Positions 23,101 through 39,138 of a stretch of 64,000 nucleotides of DNA are shown here, in pieces. The stretch lies in assembly GCA_012064415.1 (NCBI GenBank), contig SSNU01000187.1, positions 170,830 to 234,829 of the forward strand, written 5' to 3'. Every line of letters begins with the position of its first letter. The stretch's first letter is position 1. This DNA is from Gyrodactylus bullatarudis (lineage: Eukaryota > Platyhelminthes > Monogenea > Gyrodactylidea > Gyrodactylidae). The notes beneath the pieces were generated by a model, which made no database searches, was not told the origin of the DNA, and saw nothing but the letters and a program-made list of their open reading frames with translations. The translations under genes and the position numbers were made by a program.

Positions 23101-26100
23101 GAAATAATAAATGGATGGTTCTCTACCAATGAATTTACTGTTCTTCAAGAGAAAGTCATTTCATCTAATCAAATTCCCGCCTTTTCTTTAAGGACAATTT
23201 CTGGATTCGAGTCAAAATTTGGTAGCCAGCGTTTCATTAAATGTGATTGCAAGCTAAATTGCAAGACAAATAGATGCAAATGCATGCGTCAAGACCTACT
23301 TTGTAACTCGAAGTGTCATAACAGTAGTCCTTGTAGTAATAAGTGAAAAAATTTTAGTTTAATAAAAGGTTATTAAACTAATATTATTGATTCATATCAC
23401 TGAGGAGTTTAAGTTTTTCAACTTTGAAAATTATTTCAAAATATATTGATAGATATTTGAAAATTTAGTTTAGTTTCAATACTCACTGGGGGGTTTCGAA
23501 ACTCACGAGTTTCAATACTCACGAAAACCGTGAATTTAGAAACTAGTTTCAATATTCATGAAGATATTCGTGAGTTTCAAAACTCATGAAGAATTTCCAA
23601 TTAAGGTATTAATCGTATGGATAATTCTGGAAATATATGTCTTAGACTCAAATCTAATCTATCAGAAAGTTCAAAATTTTCATCATATATCTTTAAATTA
23701 AAAAGAGTGTATAATAAAGATCTGAGCTCTGCCATTCGTGAAACAGGTTTTATACTGATTCAAATGACGTTGATTTTTTTCAAAATATTAATTTTTGGTT
23801 AAAATTTTTTTTATTGGAAACCTATTTCCCAGGGTCATAGATGGAAAGTAAGATAACTTTTATCGAATAATCATACCTATAGAATTTAAATATGCAATCG
23901 CCTCCATCTGCAAAAGCTTCAAAGAATAAAAATTACTCAGTATTCGATCGATACCTCCTGAACTAAAAATAATTGCGTTAAAATATAGATTCGTAATCAG
24001 CGTATTCATAGATTTTTAAAATTAACATCATTTTATCTCTGAACAGTTTCGATTAAAATTCAGAAGTGAATAACAACCTGATTTTGGAATCCCTTTAGAG
24101 TTATTGAGATTTTTTAGTAGATGAAATTAGGATTTACTCACCAATGTTATGAGATAGTAAGTGATTTGTTAATCTGGGCAAGCACCTTTTCATCAAGTCA
24201 ACAAGCACTAGTTGATCTGTTTGAATGCCTAATAATGACTTTGAAGAGTAATAAGATGGCGGCAAAACATCCTCGATAATTGAGCACATCATCCAAAATG
24301 TCGTCTCTTCCTCCATGAATAATAAAAGTGTGGCCGTAATCTGTTATTTTTAATTTTAAAAAAATAAATTATCTTACTGGAAATTTTCTGATTCTTTCAG
24401 ATACCTAATATTTTCCATCCTACTAACTAATAACCTCTCAGAGCAAGATTCCAAATTGATCTAAATTCTCTCCCCTAATAAATGACATAATACCATTCTC
24501 AAAATACTTGATAAATTATGTACCCAAAGAACACAATTGATGAATAACTATATTTTTACTAATGATATAATCATGCATAGCAAATATTTGTGATAATAAA
24601 ACTTTAAATTCTATAGAAAAATCATGATACATCTATTTAATACTACAAACAAGAATAGACTAAATTTTCTAATTCATTAATCAAGATAGAATTAGGAAAT
24701 TTTGTAAAATAATTCCAACAAACCATTCCAAGACCTTGGCAATATCCAATGTCGACATAGAGGAAAGCGAGAGCTCTCAGAATCCTTCGGAGTCTGGGAA
24801 TTCCAATTGAATTGACATCACTGAAGCATACATTAGTTGGCATAGTTCGTAGGAGATCCTTTTGAAAAAAAATGTTAATCAATTTTTAGGGTGAGATAAA
24901 ATCTCTTTTTCGATTGATTTTTGTGTCAATTTTTTGTTCCTCGTCTTTAAACAGAGAGTGATGAATATTTATGATCAATTTATTTATGAAAATTCTAACT
25001 AATTTGCCCACAAAAACACTAAGAGAGAATATCAACATAAATCACTGACTTTTTCAATTTGTTTAAAGTCGGCGGAAATTTCCTCATTGCTAGCCTGGAC
25101 AATATCAAGATATTTTTCTGGTGGAACTTTCTGTGATGCTTTAGTCTTTTTTTCAATTGACCCTAAGATTCTGGGCCAAAGTTGTGGACGTATAGTATGC
25201 GGGATACCTTTTGTTGAACTTGTAATTCGATAATCTGAATTATTTTAGATATAATAATTAAAATGACGAATTGTAAATTGATTATTTATAATTTTCTACA
25301 ATCTTGAATAGATACTATAGAGTAGGGTAATACAGAATATTCTTTTTCCGAACAACTTTATTGGCGATTTGCTAATTTGGACTTCTCTACACAGAAAACG
25401 AGAATTTCAAAAATTAAATTTAAAAATTTTATCGTTCTGGTACCCATAAATCCTATTTTCCCAAAATTCTTCAAATAGGAACAAAAAATGTATATCAGAA
25501 CAAAATTTAAAATATTCAATTCACTTAAATTTACAAAATGAACATTTGGATCCGTCAGAGACATATTTCACTTTTTATTCATTTTTATTCCAACATAGAT
25601 TGATAAAAGAAGATCAAAGTGAACGTGGAGAACTATCGAAATGAATTCTTAAAGTAGACTTGATTCTTAACTAAAGAAGAAGATACTCATTTTATTTCAA
25701 ATTTTATTTTTTATGGGATCATTAAAGGTTTAAATTCAAAACTCGATAACTATTTAAAATATCTAAATTTTTCTTTCAATTATAGACAAATTATCAAATC
25801 TCATTTAAACAGGATAAACCTTTCATCTATAGATCCATATGAACGTTGATTTGTGAAAAGAAAAGCATACGTCAATAGTCCATGAACCACGAGTACTATT
25901 TTCTTTAAAAGTTCCATCCGTCTCAACATGTTAAAATCATCTTAAAAACACTCAAGCCGAGATCTAGTCATGGGAGGTAACTGTACATCATATTTTATTT
26001 TTCAGTAAGTGGTACTTACTGAGTGCTGAACCAAACCTATTTTAGTGAAATTAATTAACTATTTTTTTATTTTCGAAAAAAATTAAAATTTGAAAGTCTA

Positions 26101-26637
26101 TCAGTGCGTCAGACAAAGGATTTAAAATGATAACCACTATTTCAGAAACAAAAAATATTTCATGTTTTGAATGGAAAAAAATCGAATATTCTCTATCGTA
26201 AATAAATTGAACCTTGTTAATTAAAGATTTGTACAAATTACTCACTATCATCAGCGAACCCCCATATTAAGTTAGTAAGATGTTTAGATGGAGATATTTT
26301 GGTATTAACTCTATTCCAAAAAGATTCATCTGAGCCGATCCCTCCATCAATATCTGCTAATCCACCTTCAACTCCTAAAGAGTTCGTGTGATTAAATTCT
26401 ATAAATTTTAACCATTCCACACGATCAGCAGCATCTTCTTCAAATTGACAAGGCTTATAATTTTCAACTAGAGGAAATTAAAACGAATCTTTTACTTTCA
26501 GAAATGATGAAACCGAATTGATCATACAATTCTGACGGATTTTGTTTTGTATCATTTTCTCCAAGATATAAATTCGGTATCATAGTAGATATCAAAGCTG
26601 AGAACGTTTCCTGAGTATCTTTTAATCCAAAACTCAT
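2119..26637 (-). CDS. SGSM3: SGSM3/RUTBC3-type TBC-domain Rab GTPase-activating protein, 3' end beyond window
   Basis: Ten exons on the minus strand: 26637-26496, 26467-26246, 25234-25050, 24858-24724, 24340-24142, 17493-17348, 12925-12830, 6523-6350, 5891-5801, 2213-2119. All junctions are gt...ag, every phase matches, and the exons sum to exactly 495 codons. The family acts as a GAP for small GTPases (Rab/Rap) on endosomal membranes. Seen: [11 protein letters not shown] (residues 131-141) opens the TBC domain. IEKDLLR (181-187) is the IxxDxxR arginine-finger motif, and YCQG (222-225) is the glutamine finger, so both catalytic residues are present. [10 protein letters not shown] and [12 protein letters not shown] follow, then the SGSM3-like helical linker with [12 protein letters not shown] and [13 protein letters not shown]. 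The SH3 and RUN domains expected after this linker must lie left of base 1. Introns are 28, 1011, 191, 383, 6648, 4422, 6306, 458 and 3587 nt; the large ones are full of repeats. Exon 4 uses a weak gtttgt donor. The family call is firm; expression is not shown. Confidence 0.93.
2640..3990 (+). pseudogene. Penelope-like retroelement copy A, reverse transcriptase deleted
   Basis: The clear part is 3450-3990. It contains the linker [12 protein letters not shown] region and the GIY-YIG endonuclease ([14 protein letters not shown], then the conserved [16 protein letters not shown] end and PWPM stop at 3854), followed by a 3' UTR shared with copies B and C. The reverse transcriptase is absent. Upstream at about 2655-2810 a plus-strand reading ([16 protein letters not shown]...) looks coding and may be the decayed N-terminal part of the same element; that assignment is weak. 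Many stops and frameshifts. Located in an SGSM3 intron. Confidence 0.7.
4040..4074 (-). ncRNA. Hammerhead-ribozyme-like motif downstream of Penelope copy B
   Basis: The 35-nt minus-strand motif reads ACCA, CTGATGA, TGCTTCAA, GAA, ATGTACAT, T, TGGT. That is helix I (ACCA/TGGT), the CUGAUGA core, a short helix II, GAA, a palindromic helix III and H17. Helix II has a G-A mismatch, so this copy may be decayed. It lies 161 nt past the stop of copy B, in the same orientation. Confidence 0.6.
4140..5455 (-). pseudogene. Penelope-like retroelement copy B: reverse transcriptase plus GIY-YIG, frameshifted
   Basis: Read on minus: [10 protein letters not shown] (RT motif before the active site), the catalytic YVDD (codons at 5110-5099), then [17 protein letters not shown] and [14 protein letters not shown], the Penelope-type RT thumb. 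Next is the linker [11 protein letters not shown]...VFKTQRLF. The C-terminal GIY-YIG endonuclease is frameshifted at its cysteine motif (KFQCDCR) and ends PWPM at 4235. At least three frameshifts or stops inactivate it. The 5' end is truncated at about 5455, where a plus-oriented 3' fragment (copy C) is joined. Copies A and B face each other tail to tail. Confidence 0.82.
5455..5600 (+). repeat. Penelope-like element copy C, 3' end only
   Basis: This is a plus-oriented duplicate of the element's last codons (stop at 5493-5495) and its 3' UTR, starting exactly where minus-oriented copy B breaks off. Head-to-head partial copies of this kind are typical of Penelope-like elements. Confidence 0.75.
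5679..5713 (+). ncRNA. Hammerhead ribozyme motif (type I, minimal) downstream of Penelope copy C
   Basis: The 35-nt motif reads ACCA, CTGATGA, TCCTTTGA, GAA, ATGCGCAT, T, TGGT. Helix I is ACCA/TGGT (4 bp). The conserved CUGAUGA is followed by helix II (UC/GA with a CUUU loop) and GAA. Helix III is the palindrome AUGCGCAU, too short to close alone but able to pair in a dimer, as described for Penelope-element hammerheads. H17 is U, less favoured than C. It lies 184 nt past the stop of copy C. Confidence 0.72.
6781..6897. repeat. Short hairpin MITE
   Basis: The 14-bp arms CTCACAGGTTCGTC and GACGAACCTGTGGG (13 of 14 complementary) close a 117-bp unit. Inside are two further complementary pairs, TAATGGAT/ATCCATTA and ACAGCTT/AAGCTGT, which cannot form at the same time. 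Confidence 0.6.
7835..8025 (-). repeat. Penelope-like element copy D, 3' fragment
   Basis: A minus-strand remnant of the final endonuclease codons (FSFTQ-type region) and 3' UTR. It matches copy B over the AAGCTGAAAAACAC and GAGAGAAAAGT stretches. No hammerhead motif is found next to it. Confidence 0.6.
12926..17347. other. SGSM3 intron 6 (4422 nt), repeats only
   Basis: No gene supported. It contains the inverted repeat at 13480-13965 and further copies of the same family at about 14190, 15370 and 16980. Open frames here are repeat-derived: the PEKNI string recurs in two of them. Confidence 0.5.
13480..13965. repeat. Long inverted (foldback) repeat of a dispersed family
   Basis: The two arms (about 13480-13640 and 13795-13965) are reverse complements. 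Each encodes, on opposite strands, a near-identical string (KNMT.FQIS.SRQN, SNFELK.FIDLK), which is simply the repeat read both ways. Related single arms carrying a GCGCCAAA core recur near 14200, 18790 and 44160. Confidence 0.65.
19273..19361. mobile_element. piggyBac-type TTAA MITE with a 20-bp perfect palindrome
   Basis: TTAA-flanked unit of 89 bp with CCC...GGG ends (CCCCTTCGAACCC / GGGATCGTAGGGG). It carries the perfect palindrome AGAGGTCGTATACGACCTCT at 19325-19344. A second copy lies at 54851-54938. TTAA target duplication points to piggyBac mobilisation (established for that superfamily). Confidence 0.7.
20555..20961. mobile_element. 407-bp TIR MITE
   Basis: Ends AGTGTGCACTAGGCTAGG and the imperfect reverse complement CCTACCCTAGTGTGCACT. 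The interior (AAAACAACGAAATT, ATTAAATGGCCAAGATA, GGATTTTTAAAACTGAATGA) recurs at 43691-44035. No coding capacity. Confidence 0.65.
22151..22246 (+). pseudogene. Possible transposase C-terminal fragment
   Basis: A 31-codon frame ending in TAA contains [15 protein letters not shown], which resembles the last residues of mariner/Tigger-type transposases (..RC....G.YF). A possible N-terminal piece ([15 protein letters not shown]) lies near 21940. Family assignment is a guess. Confidence 0.3.
22993..23599 (+). mobile_element. Defective GINGER-like element keeping only the transposase tail
   Basis: Terminal inverted repeats of about 78 bp (arms contain GAGTTTTGAAACTCACGAAT and GAAACTAGTTTCTAAATTC) flank a 3' coding remnant at 23101-23346. 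The remnant translates to the same CxC module as the intact element at 35 kb ([20 protein letters not shown], then [14 protein letters not shown] and stop). The terminal repeats are unrelated to those of the 35-kb element, so it is a different family member. Not autonomous. Confidence 0.78.
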
Positions 26638-26786: not shown

Positions 26787-28160
26787 ATGAGTTTGATTGC
26801 ACGAGCTAGGCAGCAAAACAAACTTAATGAAAGAGAGCTTAAACTAGGTTATACTTCGGGAGTATCTAGTTGGCATAAACAGTATTCAGATTCTGCTTGG
26901 ATTTATGCTGGTGGACTTAATTACGACCTAACAGAAGGCGATCTTTTAGCTGTTTTTTCACAATATGGCGAAATTTTAAATATCAACTTGGTTCGAGATC
27001 ATAAAACAGGAAGTTCGAAAGGATTTTGTTTCATTTGTTACGAAGATCAAAGATCTACTGTTCTTGCTACGGATAATTTTAATGGAATTACGCTTTGTGG
27101 AAGAATAATAAAAGTAGATCACGTTGAAAAGTACAAAGTTCCCAAAGAATCAATGATGGATGTCTCCAAAGAAAAATCTGATGCTAAAAAGATTGATATT
27201 AACAACAAGGATGAAGTTGCTGAATATGTAAGAGTTCACGGTTGCGGTCCTGAAGTATTCAAAGAACTCGAGGAGTTATCAAAGAAGGCTCACGCTAAAA
27301 AGAAAAAGAGTTCAAAGAAACACAAAAAAGATAAGAAAAAGAAAAAAAAGAAGAGTAAAAAGGACAAGAAAAAGATTAAGAAGCTCAAAAAGAAGTTGAA
27401 AAAGTCAATGGAAGAGAGTAATTCGAATATCAATGTTTCTTCATCGTCTTCTTCATCCTCGTCATCAAGTGGATCTTCTTCAGAGTCTGATTCAAACGAT
27501 TATGAGAAAAAACCAAAGATTAAAATTGAGGAAGAAGAAAATTCTGAAAGGTAATTAGTAATTACATATAAAATTTTTGCATTTATTATTAGTGTATTAC
27601 GATGTTCATAACAGTTCATGAGAGTCAAATGCGACTTTTTATCATTTTACATTATGTTGTTTAGGATTTCTTTAATGACATAATTGCCATAATGAGTTTG
27701 TTTTTTTCAATTCAAATATCAAGTTTTAATTTTTCCTGTCTCTAATCCGTTATGAAGATTAATTATTTTCTTCCTAAACAGATATAATCGCAACCCAGAG
27801 CCTCCTGTAAAAGAAAATCAATCTGAATTACCATCAATCACATATTATCAACCAAAGAGAAGTCCTGCGAGAAATCCTGTTATTCGATCTGCTGCTCCGA
27901 TTCAATACGCTAATGCAGAACCTCCGTCTCCACCTAGAAAACAAATATTCAGGAAACCTGAACCAAGAATAACTACCTATCAGTCCGATAATAATAACCG
28001 CTATGCCCATTCCCCACCAAGGAGATCTTATAACTCTTCTCCTAGAAGATACAACCGGTCACCACCAAGAAGACCCAATAAAAATTATTCCCCAAGAAAT
28101 GGTAGAAGATCTTCACCATATTCCAGGAAATCAAGAAGCAGATCTCCTCATAGAAGATAA
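26787..28160 (+). CDS. RBMX2: RBMX2/Ist3-type RNA-binding protein (U2 snRNP RES complex), 380 aa
   Basis: Two exons, 26787-27550 and 27782-28160, joined across a 231-nt intron (gtaatt...aacag, phase 2). The family (yeast Snu17/Ist3) binds pre-mRNA as part of the RES complex of the activated spliceosome. Seen: the conserved N-terminal leader with NERELKLG and SSWHKQY. A single RRM spans about residues 36-113, with RNP2 WIYAGGL and RNP1 SKGFCFICY. After the RRM come a lysine-rich block (about 168-210), a serine run (about 219-235) and an arginine/serine/proline-rich tail with repeated SPPRR and SPRR units, typical of a splicing factor. The ATG at 26787 is chosen because it aligns with the start of the conserved leader. 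The last 126 residues are visible only after splicing; reading exon 1 straight through ends four nt into the intron. It runs divergently from SGSM3. Identification is firm. Confidence 0.95.
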
Positions 28161-31686: not shown

Positions 31687-32184
31687 ATGATCAATCTTCC
31701 TGATTTTGTTCACAACGAGAAAAGTCCCTCTACCTCAGTTAGTGATTCTGGGATTGACAACAATGGTTACAAATTTTCTGAAATCTCACCCAATTCGGAT
31801 ATTTCCACCAGCAATTCTTCTTCTCATAACTTTCAACACTTGCGAAGACATTACAAGACGGAAATTTGCAAACGCTTCCTTAAAAGTCCGAATGGTTACT
31901 GCGATTATGGAAATAGGTGTCAATTCGCCCATGGAATAGATGATTTAAGACATCCCCAACGACATGTAAGGTACAAGACAGAACTCTGTCGGCTGTTCCA
32001 CATGGAAGGAATTTGTATTTTTTCAAGAAAATGTAATTTCATCCACAACGAAGATGTCAGTACATTGAATAGGATACGAAAGCAAGTCGATGTCTTTCAT
32101 GCAATTCAACTCAAGAATAGAATTAATGGTGGCCTCAACAACATAAGTTCCCTGGCGGAAATAGATGAAAATAGATCTTTTTGA
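31687..32184 (+). CDS. TIS11/ZFP36-like tandem CCCH zinc-finger protein, 165 aa
   Basis: Single-exon gene. The TIS11/tristetraprolin family binds AU-rich elements in mRNA 3' UTRs and recruits deadenylases. Seen: a serine/asparagine-rich N-terminus (about 1-52), then two fingers each led by the family lead-in (HYKTEIC, RYKTELC). Finger 1 is C61-x10-C72-x5-C78-x3-H82. Finger 2 is C101-x8-C110-x5-C116-x3-H120. The canonical first spacing is Cx8, so finger 1 carries two extra residues (CKRFLKSPNGYC). The spacer between the fingers is the normal length for the family. The protein is short, with no long C-terminal region. CCAAT and TATA elements lie just upstream. AATAAA-like signals at about 32204 and 32270 place the 3' end in the 127-bp gap before the convergent gamma-SNAP gene. 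The exact paralog is not assigned. Confidence 0.88.
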   Translation: MINLPDFVHNEKSPSTSVSDSGIDNNGYKFSEISPNSDISTSNSSSHNFQHLRRHYKTEICKRFLKSPNGYCDYGNRCQFAHGIDDLRHPQRHVRYKTELCRLFHMEGICIFSRKCNFIHNEDVSTLNRIRKQVDVFHAIQLKNRINGGLNNISSLAEIDENRSF

Positions 32185-32311: not shown

Positions 32312-33391
32312 TCAACAAATGTCATCACAATCATCGTCATTATTTGAAATAAGATTGGAATTCGAGCTAGCATCTTTGATTGGTTCATTATTTTCTGCTT
32401 GAGCTGAATCTTTAACTTTAGGCAAAGGGATTTGTTTTACGAGAATCTGAAACTAAAAATACACAAATTAAAAACAACATTTTCCGGATGTATAATTAAA
32501 ACTTACTTCATATTCATGGTTCTTAAAAGCAGATGTCTCAATGGCAACTCTTGCATCAGTTCCATCTTCATTCTCAATAGATTGTATGAGTTTTAAGACG
32601 TTTTGATAGTGTTCACTAGCCCCAAATCCCCACGAAGTGGTTGCCCTTTTAACATGTTGAGTAGCTGCCACGGTATCAGAATGTAACAACTCAATTATGA
32701 CCAATTTAATAACATCGCGATGGACCATACTAATTATATCGTTATCTGGATTGCGGCTGAGAGCGGCTTTAATACTCTGCTGTAGTTCTAGAGAGGTTTT
32801 CTTGTAATTCTTTCCAAGAAGGTAAGCTTCAGCAGCCCTACGAAAGGTTTTGGATGATTCAATTTGTCGATCAACAACTAACATTAAAGAAGCGGCTGAA
32901 TGTAAAGCATCGCCAGCTTTAGTAGGATTCGTTTCAATAATATTTCTGGAAAATAAAATAAACTTCAAATAGATTGAAAATGATGTAATATATTTTTATG
33001 AAACTTACTCAGCAGCCATAATATAGGTGTTTATTCCACTATCATGTGAACCATGCTTGAAAAGAATATCTGCAGCTTCAAGGTAATGAACAAACATCAA
33101 ATCTAATTTCCCAAGAAGTCGATAACAGTTTGCGGCTTCTTTAAGTTGATTTGCAGCATAATAATAGGAGCCAGTTGTTTTATAGAATTGTGATGTTTTC
33201 TTATAAGTTTCGGCAGCTTTGATATAATCTTGATTAACAAAGTAGATTGAAGAAGCTTTTTTCAAATACTCTATAGCCCCATCATAATCAGGAGTCCATT
33301 GCAAAAGGGATTTAGTAACACTAATAAATAAAAAAATTACAATATACCATTTCTCTGCCTTTTGAATCAAGGATTCTGGATTTTCTGACAT
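32312..33391 (-). CDS. NAPG: Gamma-SNAP (NSF attachment protein gamma), 311 aa
   Basis: Four exons: 33391-33348, 33320-33009, 32945-32507, 32452-32312. Introns are only 27, 63 and 54 nt and phases match. SNAPs load the ATPase NSF onto SNARE complexes for disassembly after membrane fusion. Seen: the gamma-specific start KAEK...LLQWTPDYDGA, TPR-like helical repeats (KAAETYKKTSQFY, QLKEAANCYRLLGK, KTFRRAAEAYL), the gamma-type motif WGFGASEHYQNVLKLI, and a terminal acidic tail ending DDIC. Length matches the family (about 312 aa). It is gamma rather than alpha because of the WxPDYD start and the tail. The ATG at 33391 is used rather than the upstream GTG at 33421. Intron 1 (27 nt) is a multiple of three with no stop, so if retained it would insert nine residues and hide the splice. 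Convergent with the TIS11-like gene. Confidence 0.93.
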
Positions 33392-33710: not shown

Positions 33711-34025
33711 TCAGAGGCAATTATCAATTTTTTCTAATAGTTTGTCGATGTCATTTTCATTTGGGAAATGGCCTCCTAATCTTTTATCAAATGTAACATT
33801 TCCGTTCAGTTTTATGATAAAATCATCACCGGGGCAAACATCTGACAACTTGAATGATAGTTAGATAATTCAATTTACAATTGTAACGTCTTTCCCGTAC
33901 TTTCTATTTAAAACTTTCCATATTTCTACCGAAGCGTTACGACACTCGCAGCTTGAGCTATTCAGTATCAGTAAAAATTTAAAATACCATGAATTAATCT
34001 CGACCGTACAGTTTTTTCTTGGCAT
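33711..34025 (-). CDS. Selenoprotein W-like (Rdx family) protein, cysteine form, 84 aa
   Basis: Three exons: 34025-33988, 33957-33879, 33848-33711, with two introns of exactly 30 nt each (gtattt...aatag and gtaaat...tcaag). The family has a thioredoxin-like fold with a CxxU/CxxC redox site. Seen after splicing: NSCSSCECRN, giving CxxC at residues 13-16 in place of CxxU; then VCPGDDFIIKLNG and GGHFPNENDIDKLLEKI, which match the C-terminal half of the Rdx fold. The splice position inside the first redox cysteine codon (TG|C) and the 79-nt middle exon are identical to the neighbouring Sec gene, so the two are tandem duplicates. The first 30-nt intron has no in-frame stop and can be mistaken for coding sequence. 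No SECIS is needed here. Function beyond redox is not known from sequence. Confidence 0.85.
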
Positions 34026-34429
34026 TATTAACTAGAGTGTTCAATTTTGTGGCACAGTGAGTTAAAGTCAAACTTCTGAACAATTACAAAGTTACATAGG
34101 AATCAAGTTATAAAAAGTACTCTAGTGGAATTGGATCTGATTCGTTAATTTTTTTTGTTTTCCAATGAACTCATTCCATAGGTTACTTTAGAGGTAAGAT
34201 AAACTAATAGGTCTCTAGCGAATGAGGAACTTCAGACTCTATCGCCGTAGCTGTTCTTGTGTAAATGAAAAGCATTCTGCGTAGTATACTATGAATTGCG
34301 TGCACGTATCGATCTGTAGAAAGCGTTCAAAAATAAACTTAGCTCAGCTACACATAAAAATTAGCTAACCTTAAAATATTAGCCTGAAAATCAATAGCAA
34401 TAAAAAGATGAAGTATTCAGATTTCTCGA

Positions 34430-34495
34430 TTTATTAAACCTTGTTGTCAAATTTAGGGGGACAATTGTTTTACCCCAAAATCATCATTTAGTGGT
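34430..34495 (-). promoter_or_regulatory. Candidate SECIS element and poly(A) signal in the SELENOW 3' UTR
   Basis: Starting 40 nt past the stop, the minus strand reads ATGATGATTTTGGGG, then an AAAA-containing loop, then CCCCC, an A/T-rich return arm and TTTGAC. This matches the SECIS layout: ATGA quartet, about 12 nt of helix, an A-rich apical loop, and a TGA-type quartet partner. GGGG/CCCC and TTTA/TAAA-type pairs can form the helix, with a few mismatches. AATAAA follows at 34435-34430. The fold is by eye only. Confidence 0.6.
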
Positions 34496-34534
34496 GAGTA
34501 AATTGAAAAAAATGAAATTCCAAAACAATATTGA

Positions 34535-34867
34535 TTACTTTGTCAGGCTCGAGACTTTTTCTGTTATTGAACTAATGATTTCTTCAATTTTAGCTGGATT
34601 TGGGAGTTTACCTTCTGTTTTTTTGTCGAAAATCATTTCATCATTAAACTTAACTGTGAATTCTCGGTATTCGCCAACACTAATATCCTTTTAAAATACA
34701 TCTAGATGAAAAATTAATTGAACTTACAACCTCAACAGATTTTCCTAGGACCTCCTGGAGACCTGAAGAGATTTTCTTAGCCTTGGCACCGTAACCTCAT
34801 GAGTTGCTGAAAGATGTATTTTTAAATAATCAGCTTACCAGTATCTAATATGGACTTTTGGCGTCAT
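34535..34867 (-). CDS. SELENOW: Selenoprotein W with in-frame TGA decoded as selenocysteine, 86 aa
   Basis: Three exons: 34867-34839, 34806-34728, 34687-34535, with introns of 32 and 40 nt. SelW is a small cytosolic thioredoxin-fold selenoprotein. Seen: after splicing the N-terminus reads MTPKVHIRYC then N-S-[TGA]-G-Y-G-A-K. This puts Cys at residue 10 and Sec at residue 13, the same positions as in vertebrate SelW, with the family GY after Sec. The TGA is at 34797-34799. Downstream FTVKFNDEMIFDKKTEGKLP and the amphipathic C-terminal helix match the Rdx fold. It ends at TAA 34535-34537. Simple ORF callers break it at the TGA, so it is easy to miss. An inverted CCAAT lies 58 nt upstream (34925-34929), and a candidate SECIS plus AATAAA follow the stop. 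Confidence 0.9.
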
Positions 34868-35097
34868 AACTCGGATGAAGTCCTCGGGAACATCTGATTA
34901 AATAGGTAATCTAGATTAATTTCTATTGGTCAAAAAACATGGCAAAGGAAAATAGTCTGAATAGATAAACTCATACTATTGTAGGACCTAAAGTAGTAGG
35001 GTGTGGGAGGGTAGGGGGCCACTCTGTTAAGCAAACGGATAATAGACGAGATATACCAATAGTACCCAGTATACATTTATCGACCAATGTATGTATA

Positions 35098-37137
35098 TGT
35101 TACCGTGAGTTTGGGAAATCAGTGAGTGTTGGTAATTCACTAGTGTATGTTGGTAATCAGTGTATCTTTAGTGAATCTAGCTAATAAGCCCTTATTACCC
35201 AAACTCACTGAGAAGGTCAGTGAATTGTAGGAAGTGTTTGTCTGAGGGATTGATTTTCAAAGAAAAATTTTTAAAATGCAAAGATGATTCAATAAGTTCA
35301 AGCCCTGAATACGAAATTCTATTTATACTACAAATACAAATTTCATACACCTTTTTATATTTTGATTCCCATTGGCTTTCTTAAGGGTATTGTCACTTTT
35401 TCCATGAATTTACTTCAATCGAAACATAATCGGTTTAAAAATGGACGTCAAAGAATGGCGATTAAAATTCGAAAAATATCTAGAAGAAATAAAATCTACC
35501 AAATTATCATCTCTATTGTCAAAATTAGAAATAGACACCATGATCGACCGGATATTGCTTCTCAAAAGCAACTCATGCTCCAAAGTTCCACAGGATTTTA
35601 AGCTTCTTAAGAAGTACGACTATTTAGAAGAAGAGGGAAAGAGATTTCTTATTGAACCAAGAAGTCTCGATTCAAACAAGGTAATCAGATATGCTGCTCA
35701 AGAAGACGTTTTCGATATTCTTTATGAGGCCCATCTTAAAACTGGACACGGTGGCCGAGATCGGATGGTCTACGATATAAGGGTGAAATGGAAGAATATT
35801 ACATACTCTCAAATCCAGAAGTTTTTGAATCTGTGTATCACTTGTCAAAAGTCAAAAGGTTCCCGCAATAAGAAATTAGTCGTAAAGCCAATCATTTCTG
35901 AAAATTTCAACTCAAGAGCACAAGTTGATTTGATCGATTTTCAATCGAATCCTGATGGGGATTATAAATTCATTCTTGTTTACCAAGACCATTTGACTAA
36001 ATTCGTGAATATTTATCCACTCAGGAATAAGAAGGCTGAGAGCGTCGCTGAGGTTCTAAAAAGAATTTTTTCAACTTTTGGCTCCCCTGACATCCTTCAG
36101 AGTGATAATGGACGAGAGTTCGTCAATAAGGTCATAGATTCTCTAAAAGTATTTTGGCCAAATATGAAGATTGTTCATGGATCCCCAAGACACTCACAAA
36201 GCCAGGGGAGTGTTGAAAGGGCAAATAGAGATATTCAAAACATGCTTGCGGCCTGGATGGCTGATAATAATACAAACAACTGGTCTGATGGAATTCTTGA
36301 TGTGCAGATGGCTAAAAACAACTCATTACATGCAGGAATAAAGATGAGTCCATATGAAGCTGTCTTTGGAAGAAGAATGAAGACAGATCAAACTGCCCTT
36401 GAATCCCCGATACAAGAGGAAAACTTGGGTGATGCGGACGATTTTGAAGAAATTAATCTTGATGATTATTTCGATGAATTTGAAGTTAAAATTAACAGTG
36501 CTCGTAAAACTTGTTTGGAAAATCTCAAACTGCAGGAAAGAAAGATGTTGGCAAATTCAGAGAAGAAAATTCATACTTTCAAGGTAGGAGACAACTGCAG
36601 CATTCAAATTCCTGACGTTGATAGAGGAAGGGGCGATTTTAAATCTATAATTGGTGTAATAACTGAAAGTAACGAACAAAATGGTCTTTACAAAGTTGGA
36701 ACTATTTATGGTACCCTGAATAAATTGGTAGCAGCTAATCAATTAGATGTGGTTTCTGAAAAATTTTACGACATCTCTAGTGTCAAAGAAAATGAGTGTT
36801 CATTAAGAGAGATAAATGCCAAATTTTCCCTTGGAAATGGACAAGGAATATTCAAATGTAATTGTATTAGAAATTGTAAAACACTCACCTGTAAATGTAA
36901 AAAGAATCAAGTTTTATGTAACTCTAGATGCCATCATTCTCTTCCTTGTGGCAATAAATAAATTATTCATTTTTTCTCATTATTTTTAATCAATTGGTTG
37001 AGTTGATGAACTCACTGACTTTCTCAGTGAGTTTGGGTAATAAGGGCTTATTAGCTAGATTCACTAAAGATACACTGATTACCAACATACACTAGTGAAT
37101 TACCAACACTCACTGATTTCCCAAACTCACGGTAACA
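35098..37137 (+). mobile_element. Intact GINGER-type integrase DNA transposon, 2040 bp
   Basis: The element starts TGTTACCGTGAG and ends CTCACGGTAACA. It is flanked by the 4-bp direct repeat TATA at 35094-35097 and 37138-37141. Terminal inverted repeats of about 127 bp (35098-35224 and 37011-37137) differ at only about one position, which implies a recent insertion. The single internal ORF is open from end to end. Integrase-like transposase, TGT...ACA ends and a 4-bp duplication are GINGER-family features (established). It lies between SELENOW and alpha-tubulin. Confidence 0.9.
35441..36961 (+). CDS. GINGER/KRBA2-like integrase (rve) transposase, 506 aa
   Basis: The protein inserts the transposon by DDE strand transfer. 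Domains in order: an N-terminal helical region (1-90). An HHCC zinc-binding integrase domain follows, with H98, H103, C132 and C135 (HLKTGHGG...CITC). The catalytic core has D163 (AQVDLIDF), D222 (LQSDNGREF) and E259 (SQGSVERANRD). After an acidic linker rich in D and E (about 325-350) comes a C-terminal cysteine-rich CxC module (KCNCIRNCKTLTCKCKK, then CNSRCHHSLPC). The reading frame is uninterrupted, with no frameshift or stop. The same CxC tail occurs in the defective element at 23 kb. It resembles the transposon-derived proteins usually labelled KRAB-A domain-containing protein 2, but there is no KRAB domain here. It is probably competent for transposition, although expression is not shown. 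Confidence 0.92.
   Translation: MDVKEWRLKFEKYLEEIKSTKLSSLLSKLEIDTMIDRILLLKSNSCSKVPQDFKLLKKYDYLEEEGKRFLIEPRSLDSNKVIRYAAQEDVFDILYEAHLKTGHGGRDRMVYDIRVKWKNITYSQIQKFLNLCITCQKSKGSRNKKLVVKPIISENFNSRAQVDLIDFQSNPDGDYKFILVYQDHLTKFVNIYPLRNKKAESVAEVLKRIFSTFGSPDILQSDNGREFVNKVIDSLKVFWPNMKIVHGSPRHSQSQGSVERANRDIQNMLAAWMADNNTNNWSDGILDVQMAKNNSLHAGIKMSPYEAVFGRRMKTDQTALESPIQEENLGDADDFEEINLDDYFDEFEVKINSARKTCLENLKLQERKMLANSEKKIHTFKVGDNCSIQIPDVDRGRGDFKSIIGVITESNEQNGLYKVGTIYGTLNKLVAANQLDVVSEKFYDISSVKENECSLREINAKFSLGNGQGIFKCNCIRNCKTLTCKCKKNQVLCNSRCHHSLPCGNK

Positions 37138-37721: not shown

Positions 37722-39138
<1,417 letters not shown>

Follow-up and report, generated by a model that had tools for sequence, protein, structure and literature searches.

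Six very short segments in a 64,000-nucleotide stretch of DNA, which we analyzed as a whole and call the window, appear to be genuine U2-type GT-AG introns of a flatworm. Our analyses further suggest that they belong to a genome-wide class of micro-introns of ∼23 to 45 nt, with a second class at 54 to 72 nt, a reading to which we give a probability of roughly 0.88. What can be seen directly in the DNA are the GT...AG segments, the protein families restored when they are removed, the two length classes, the composition of the donors and acceptors, and canonical-looking stretches of U1 and U2 that would pair with introns. The minus strand carries all six window segments, each with GT at its start and AG at its end; they measure 27, 28, 30, 30, 32 and 40 nt. 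The coordinates, lengths and ends that a preliminary description had given for them all match the re-read sequence.

Short introns of the window

The shortest segment (33321 to 33347, minus strand, 27 nt) is intron 1 of a γ-SNAP gene, where it separates the first two exons (33348 to 33391 and 33009 to 33320, together spanning 33009 to 33391); the gene runs on to ∼32312. These two exons matched the solved γ-SNAP structure 2ifu_A with 36.3 bits when spliced, compared to 29.4 bits when read through, and the spliced match had no gap at the junction. When the protein was aligned with five relatives from a protein search, of which the four that are named are all from flukes, the translated intron formed a 9-residue insertion directly after the invariant KAEK. 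The joined protein matched PF14938 with 56.8 bits. Two further GT-AG introns, both on the minus strand, complete the gene model: intron 2 (32946 to 33008, 63 nt), which falls in the longer class and was also predicted ab initio, and intron 3 (32447 to 32506, 60 nt), for which the ab initio run chose another acceptor that gives 54 nt (32453 to 32506).

Four of the segments lie in two SelW/Rdx genes, again on the minus strand. In the first, SelW1, which has the CSSC form, one 30-nt GT-AG intron (33958 to 33987) is a multiple of three without an in-frame stop and the other (33849 to 33878) contains in-frame stops. With both introns removed, SelW1 matched Pfam Rdx with 26.6 bits (cut-off 22.6), and the read-through form, which ends at a stop inside the second intron, had no match. 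The second gene, SelW2 (window 34500 to 34890), has GT-AG introns of 32 nt (34807 to 34838) and 40 nt (34688 to 34727); the form that was scored, spliced and with its TGA typed as C, matched Rdx with 52.8 bits. This TGA is in frame at the selenocysteine position (CNSU), so SelW2 is probably a selenoprotein. An Rfam scan of the window found no family, SECIS included, at the gathering score.

The sixth segment (26468 to 26495, minus strand, 28 nt) is a GT-AG intron among the first exons of a gene that we take to be SGSM3-like from its likeness to SGSM3. This intron was also found ab initio, in a gene with a low score (2.1), and the assignment is supported by a RabGAP-TBC exon (PF00566, 38.6 bits), which lies downstream of it at 24718 to 24861 on the same strand. 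The spliced first exons had no Pfam match. The earlier claim that each intron restores a family alignment holds for five of the six, those of γ-SNAP and the two SelW/Rdx genes, and for the SGSM3-like gene the case is made by reading frame and likeness to SGSM3. Similarly, introns of 6 to 8 kb had been described downstream in the same genes. The SGSM3-like gene alone seems to pair its 28-nt intron with one of ∼6.6 kb, given exons that were picked by eye and the assumption that none lies between them, but the other introns of γ-SNAP are the 63- and 60-nt ones. The preliminary description had also noted two segments of multiple-of-three length without an in-frame stop, which are those at 33321 to 33347 and 33958 to 33987, and had expected gene callers to read some of the introns as coding. 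Our own ab initio finder bore this out, as it called 33009 to 33391 as one exon, straight through the 27-nt intron.

Other features of the window were recorded alongside these genes. At 26787 to 28160 on the plus strand is a gene for an RRM protein, presumably resembling RBMX2/Ist3, itself a splicing factor, with an intron of ∼230 nt by eye. A CCCH zinc-finger open reading frame at 31687 to 32184 (plus strand) is presumably tristetraprolin-like, again by eye. Two long reading frames adjoin the introns, at 35408 to 36961 (plus strand) and 37722 to 39071 (minus strand), with 517 and 449 aa from stop to stop; by eye, the first resembles a mobile-element integrase of the retroviral type.

Two intron length classes

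For a genome-wide survey, we used 100 loci, drawn from the Ras (40), kinase (40), TCP1 (9) and proteasome (11) families, all four of them conserved. A spliced aligner matched each locus to the profile of its family; it charged one flat penalty for any intron of 12 to 1,500 nt and scored the decoy ends TG-GA, GC-AG and CT-AC exactly as GT-AG. Among introns that break the frame, by shifting it or by containing a stop, 80 were GT-AG compared to 3 TG-GA, 3 CT-AC and 1 GC-AG; these counts leave out 23 introns with neither shift nor stop (8 GT-AG, 8 TG-GA, 6 CT-AC and 1 GC-AG). Three of the eight GT-AG introns set aside in this way are 30 nt long and may be real. The 80 lengths fell into separate groups, with 47 introns of 23 to 45 nt, none of 46 to 53 nt, 25 of 54 to 72 nt and 8 of 103 to 603 nt, and the medians of the shorter and longer classes were 30 and 60 nt. 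For the 80 lengths of at most 80 nt, a fit with two components gave means of 31.1 and 60.7 nt and a BIC of 22.1, whereas the BIC was 65.6 with one component and 30.5 with three; the sample was partly picked for short gaps. For this fit and for the class comparisons below, eight window introns (the six segments and two from γ-SNAP) were added to the 80.

Banning introns below 46 nt in the family alignments necessarily lowered the score of each of the 39 affected loci, with a median loss of 14.5 bits per intron; the gain was under 5 bits per short intron in six of the 39. One of these six is the Ras locus L027, which holds the smallest family intron, of 23 nt; the next smallest are two of 24 nt and two of 25 nt, each of which scored at least ∼18.5 bits over the next alternative. 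Being close to the end of the profile, the 23-nt intron gained only 0.4 bits, and the case for it lies in the Ras identity of the gene: once its three introns (23, 35 and 40 nt) were taken out, the L027 Ras protein aligned to human HRas without a gap over 163 residues (288.6 bits). At one of the nine TCP1-family loci, the CCT locus L104, the aligner placed no GT-AG intron but two decoys, of 31 and 47 nt, which are among the decoys counted above. A control on reversed DNA gave no introns in 40 loci, but this control is weak because the alignments that it produced were so short that no intron could repay its penalty.

The choice of loci bears on how these numbers are read. Twenty Ras and 20 kinase loci were picked for interrupted or stop-containing matches, and several more for split matches. 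This biases the share of each class and favors multiples of three, but we see no way in which such picking could empty the range of 46 to 53 nt. No such picking was applied to the nine TCP1-family loci, which are all that were found and by eye comprise eight CCT-like genes and one HSP60-like gene, or to the 11 proteasome loci (of 14). The nine TCP1-family loci gave introns of 30, 31 and 33 nt, of 54, 58, 59, 60, 63 and 68 nt, and of 109 and 118 nt. The proteasome family had 14 matches on 14 contigs and the TCP1 family 14 matches at nine genes, and the genome looks complete for both.

We also ran an ab initio search over a contiguous 264 kb that takes in the window and in which 14,615 bases are unreadable. 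The two strands were run separately; codon statistics and splice-site weights came from the family set, and all intron lengths from 15 to 200 nt were treated alike. This family-exon model replaced a first pass trained on long open reading frames, mobile-element genes among them, which had been noisy. The run predicted 74 GT-AG introns compared to 20 TG-GA decoys. Specifically, it placed 30 introns at 53 to 74 nt against 2 decoys and 9 introns at 28 to 38 nt against 4 decoys of up to 45 nt, and none of the 74 introns measured 39 to 52 nt. It recovered two of the eight window introns exactly, and its nine short introns include the window's own 28-nt intron. The class near 60 nt is strong in these 264 kb; that near 30 nt, taken alone, is weak and is the smaller of the two (9 introns compared to 30). 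Together, the spliced family alignments and the 264-kb run support the proposal of the preliminary description that the segments are host introns belonging to a class near 30 nt found across the genome.

The idea that longer-class introns are two short introns fused was considered and rejected. Internal YAG was only mildly depleted in 56 introns (26 compared to 37 for GAY), and no regular internal splice pair was seen in the longer class.

Splice signals and competing explanations

Of the splice sites, the aligner required GT and AG and made no use of the other positions. Strong preferences of the usual kind nevertheless appeared at +3 to +6 of the donor and among the acceptor pyrimidines, including the one at −3. 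The donors of the 47 short introns had A at +3 in 77%, A at +4 in 85%, T at +6 in 68% and G at +5 in 43%. When family and window introns were combined, G at +5 was present in 22 of 53 introns of the shorter class compared to 22 of 27 of the longer class (P = 0.0008). Pyrimidine content before the acceptor was nearly equal in the two classes (0.673 in the shorter and 0.685 in the longer for the family introns; 0.657 and 0.719 ab initio), which speaks against the shorter class having simply lost its tract. Branch-point searches, by expectation maximization and with fixed patterns, returned A+T-rich words alone. YTNAY was present in 47 of 61 short introns compared to 46.1 expected from shuffles, and CTRAY in 8 compared to 4.6; since these motifs are not clearly above the shuffles, what is said below of the branch site is our inference.

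The 5′ end of the U1 snRNA reads AAACTTACCTGG and the branch-pairing stretch of U2, in which GTAGTA is present, reads GTGTAGTATCTG; both look canonical by eye. Two matches to U1 snRNA, separated by 413 bases, are located on a 19.9-kb contig (G000:C9:19011-19728). Also found were the large subunit of U2AF (467.3 bits), the RED N-terminal domain (222.8 bits) and a U12 snRNA gene (76 bits). The preliminary description had proposed that this lineage has an adapted intron-definition machinery. U1, U2, U2AF, RED and U12 were all found, so special machinery is not demonstrated, and we favor ordinary splicing by the major spliceosome across the intron. In the explanation that we prefer, an ordinary U1/U2 spliceosome would remove both classes by intron definition, because the introns are too small for their ends to be recognized separately. 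The branch site would be degenerate, at a distance from the acceptor of a few to ∼20 nt. Introns of the class near 30 nt may tolerate the loss of G at +5 through A at +3 and +4. Work on the human B complex gives a computed donor-to-branch span of ∼52 nt and describes Smu1/RED as helping where the human donor-to-branch distance is short (PMC6692369). Introns of 23 to 45 nt lie wholly under this span, so if they are spliced some adjustment must exist.

That the segments are not introns, but retained coding or inserted sequence or assembly errors, is very improbable. Two of the six would read through, being multiples of three without a stop, and 8 of the 88 family GT-AG introns likewise lack a frame shift or stop, as such an explanation would have it. 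Against this, the 47 frame-breaking family introns of up to 45 nt comprise 25 that shift the frame and 22 that are multiples of three with in-frame stops. Moreover, conserved motifs are split exactly, and many contigs show the same signals. The possibility that these are minor, U12-type introns can scarcely be entertained: a U12 snRNA gene is indeed present, but the U12-type donor motif, RTATCCTT, is absent from all listed GT-AG introns, a set to which the aligner's end types did not admit AT-AC introns.

The gap between the classes, with none of 80 family introns at 46 to 53 nt and none of 74 ab initio introns at 39 to 52 nt, might instead reflect two modes of splicing. The class near 30 nt would be removed without U2AF, like the human short introns proposed to depend on SPF45/RBM17, and the class near 60 nt with U2AF, so that an intron of 46 to 52 nt would suit neither. 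The difference in donor +5 G between the classes (P = 0.0008, above) is in keeping with this, and a U2AF-independent route is described for some human short introns (PMC8363638). The ∼52-nt span computed for the human B complex (PMC6692369) also fits, but the near-equal pyrimidine content of the two classes does not, as a tract lost from the shorter class is not seen. In addition, the +5 G difference was not significant ab initio (5 of 9 shorter compared to 26 of 30 longer introns, P = 0.065). We consider such a division of labor unlikely. Equally doubtful is a reading in which two geometrically distinct intron-defined modes operate side by side, one using a relaxed donor at 23 to 45 nt and one using a strict donor at 54 to 72 nt, the lengths of 46 to 52 nt between them being forbidden. 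Were two modes at work, the shorter class would act wholly under the ∼52-nt human B-complex span, as would most introns of the longer class once the part from branch to acceptor is subtracted.

Comparison with known short introns

The genome offers an animal case of 23- to 30-nt introns, under the human B-complex span, that lie in ordinary conserved genes and beside kilobase introns. The lower size limit of an animal spliceosome thereby becomes testable in a lineage with ordinary-looking U1, U2, U2AF and RED. The introns also carry a warning for annotation, as gene callers will translate through some of them.

The identification of the genome as that of a flatworm is well supported. The cox1 gene, on a 14.9-kb contig, scored 399.3 bits with genetic code 9 (echinoderm and flatworm mitochondria); the scores with codes 5 and 13 were lower, at 379.6 and 380.8. 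The genome comprises 77.3 Mb in 471 contigs, and the G+C content of the window is 29.6%; Gyrodactylus genomes are given as 67 to 91 Mb with 31 to 39% G+C (PMC12677651). Tapeworm short introns peak at ∼36 and 73 bp, and bimodal short introns are stated for Gyrodactylus salaris (PMC5036155). Like those genomes, the present one is that of a parasitic flatworm with two discrete short peaks and A+T-rich introns, but its peaks are at ∼31 and 61 nt, unlike the ∼36 and 73 bp of tapeworms (PMC5036155), and its minimum is 23 to 24 nt.

In the fluke Opisthorchis felineus, peaks are reported at 37 and 90 bp, with ∼34% of introns below 75 bp; the same paper mentions microintrons in Macrostomum, notes that annotation settings can miss microintrons, and credits two short peaks to earlier work on Cestoda and Monogenea (PMC6530080). 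The present genome resembles O. felineus in having many introns below 75 bp (PMC6530080). Microintrons of that fluke are described as having splice sites nearer to the consensus and as frequently having lost the pyrimidine tract (PMC6530080), unlike here, where the shorter class has less G at donor +5 and no clear loss of pyrimidines. Sites nearer to the consensus were not found in our shorter class at +5 G, the sole position compared, and both of our classes are under 75 nt.

Outside flatworms, Dicyema introns average 26.2 nt (16 introns of 23 to 30 nt) (PMC2222250), and a genome-wide mean of 38.2 bp is given for a dicyemid (PMC6736024). The present genome is like dicyemids in having introns of 23 to 30 nt in an animal (PMC2222250). 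Unlike the uniformly tiny introns of dicyemids (PMC6736024), these occur together with a class near 60 nt and kilobase introns, apparently even within one gene. What appears to be new, judged against the literature cited here, is that both classes (∼31 and 61 nt) are shorter than the tapeworm values and that donor +5 G depends on the class. From the same sources, the nearest precedents are tapeworms, G. salaris, flukes and Macrostomum, which are closer to the present case than most of those named in the preliminary description.
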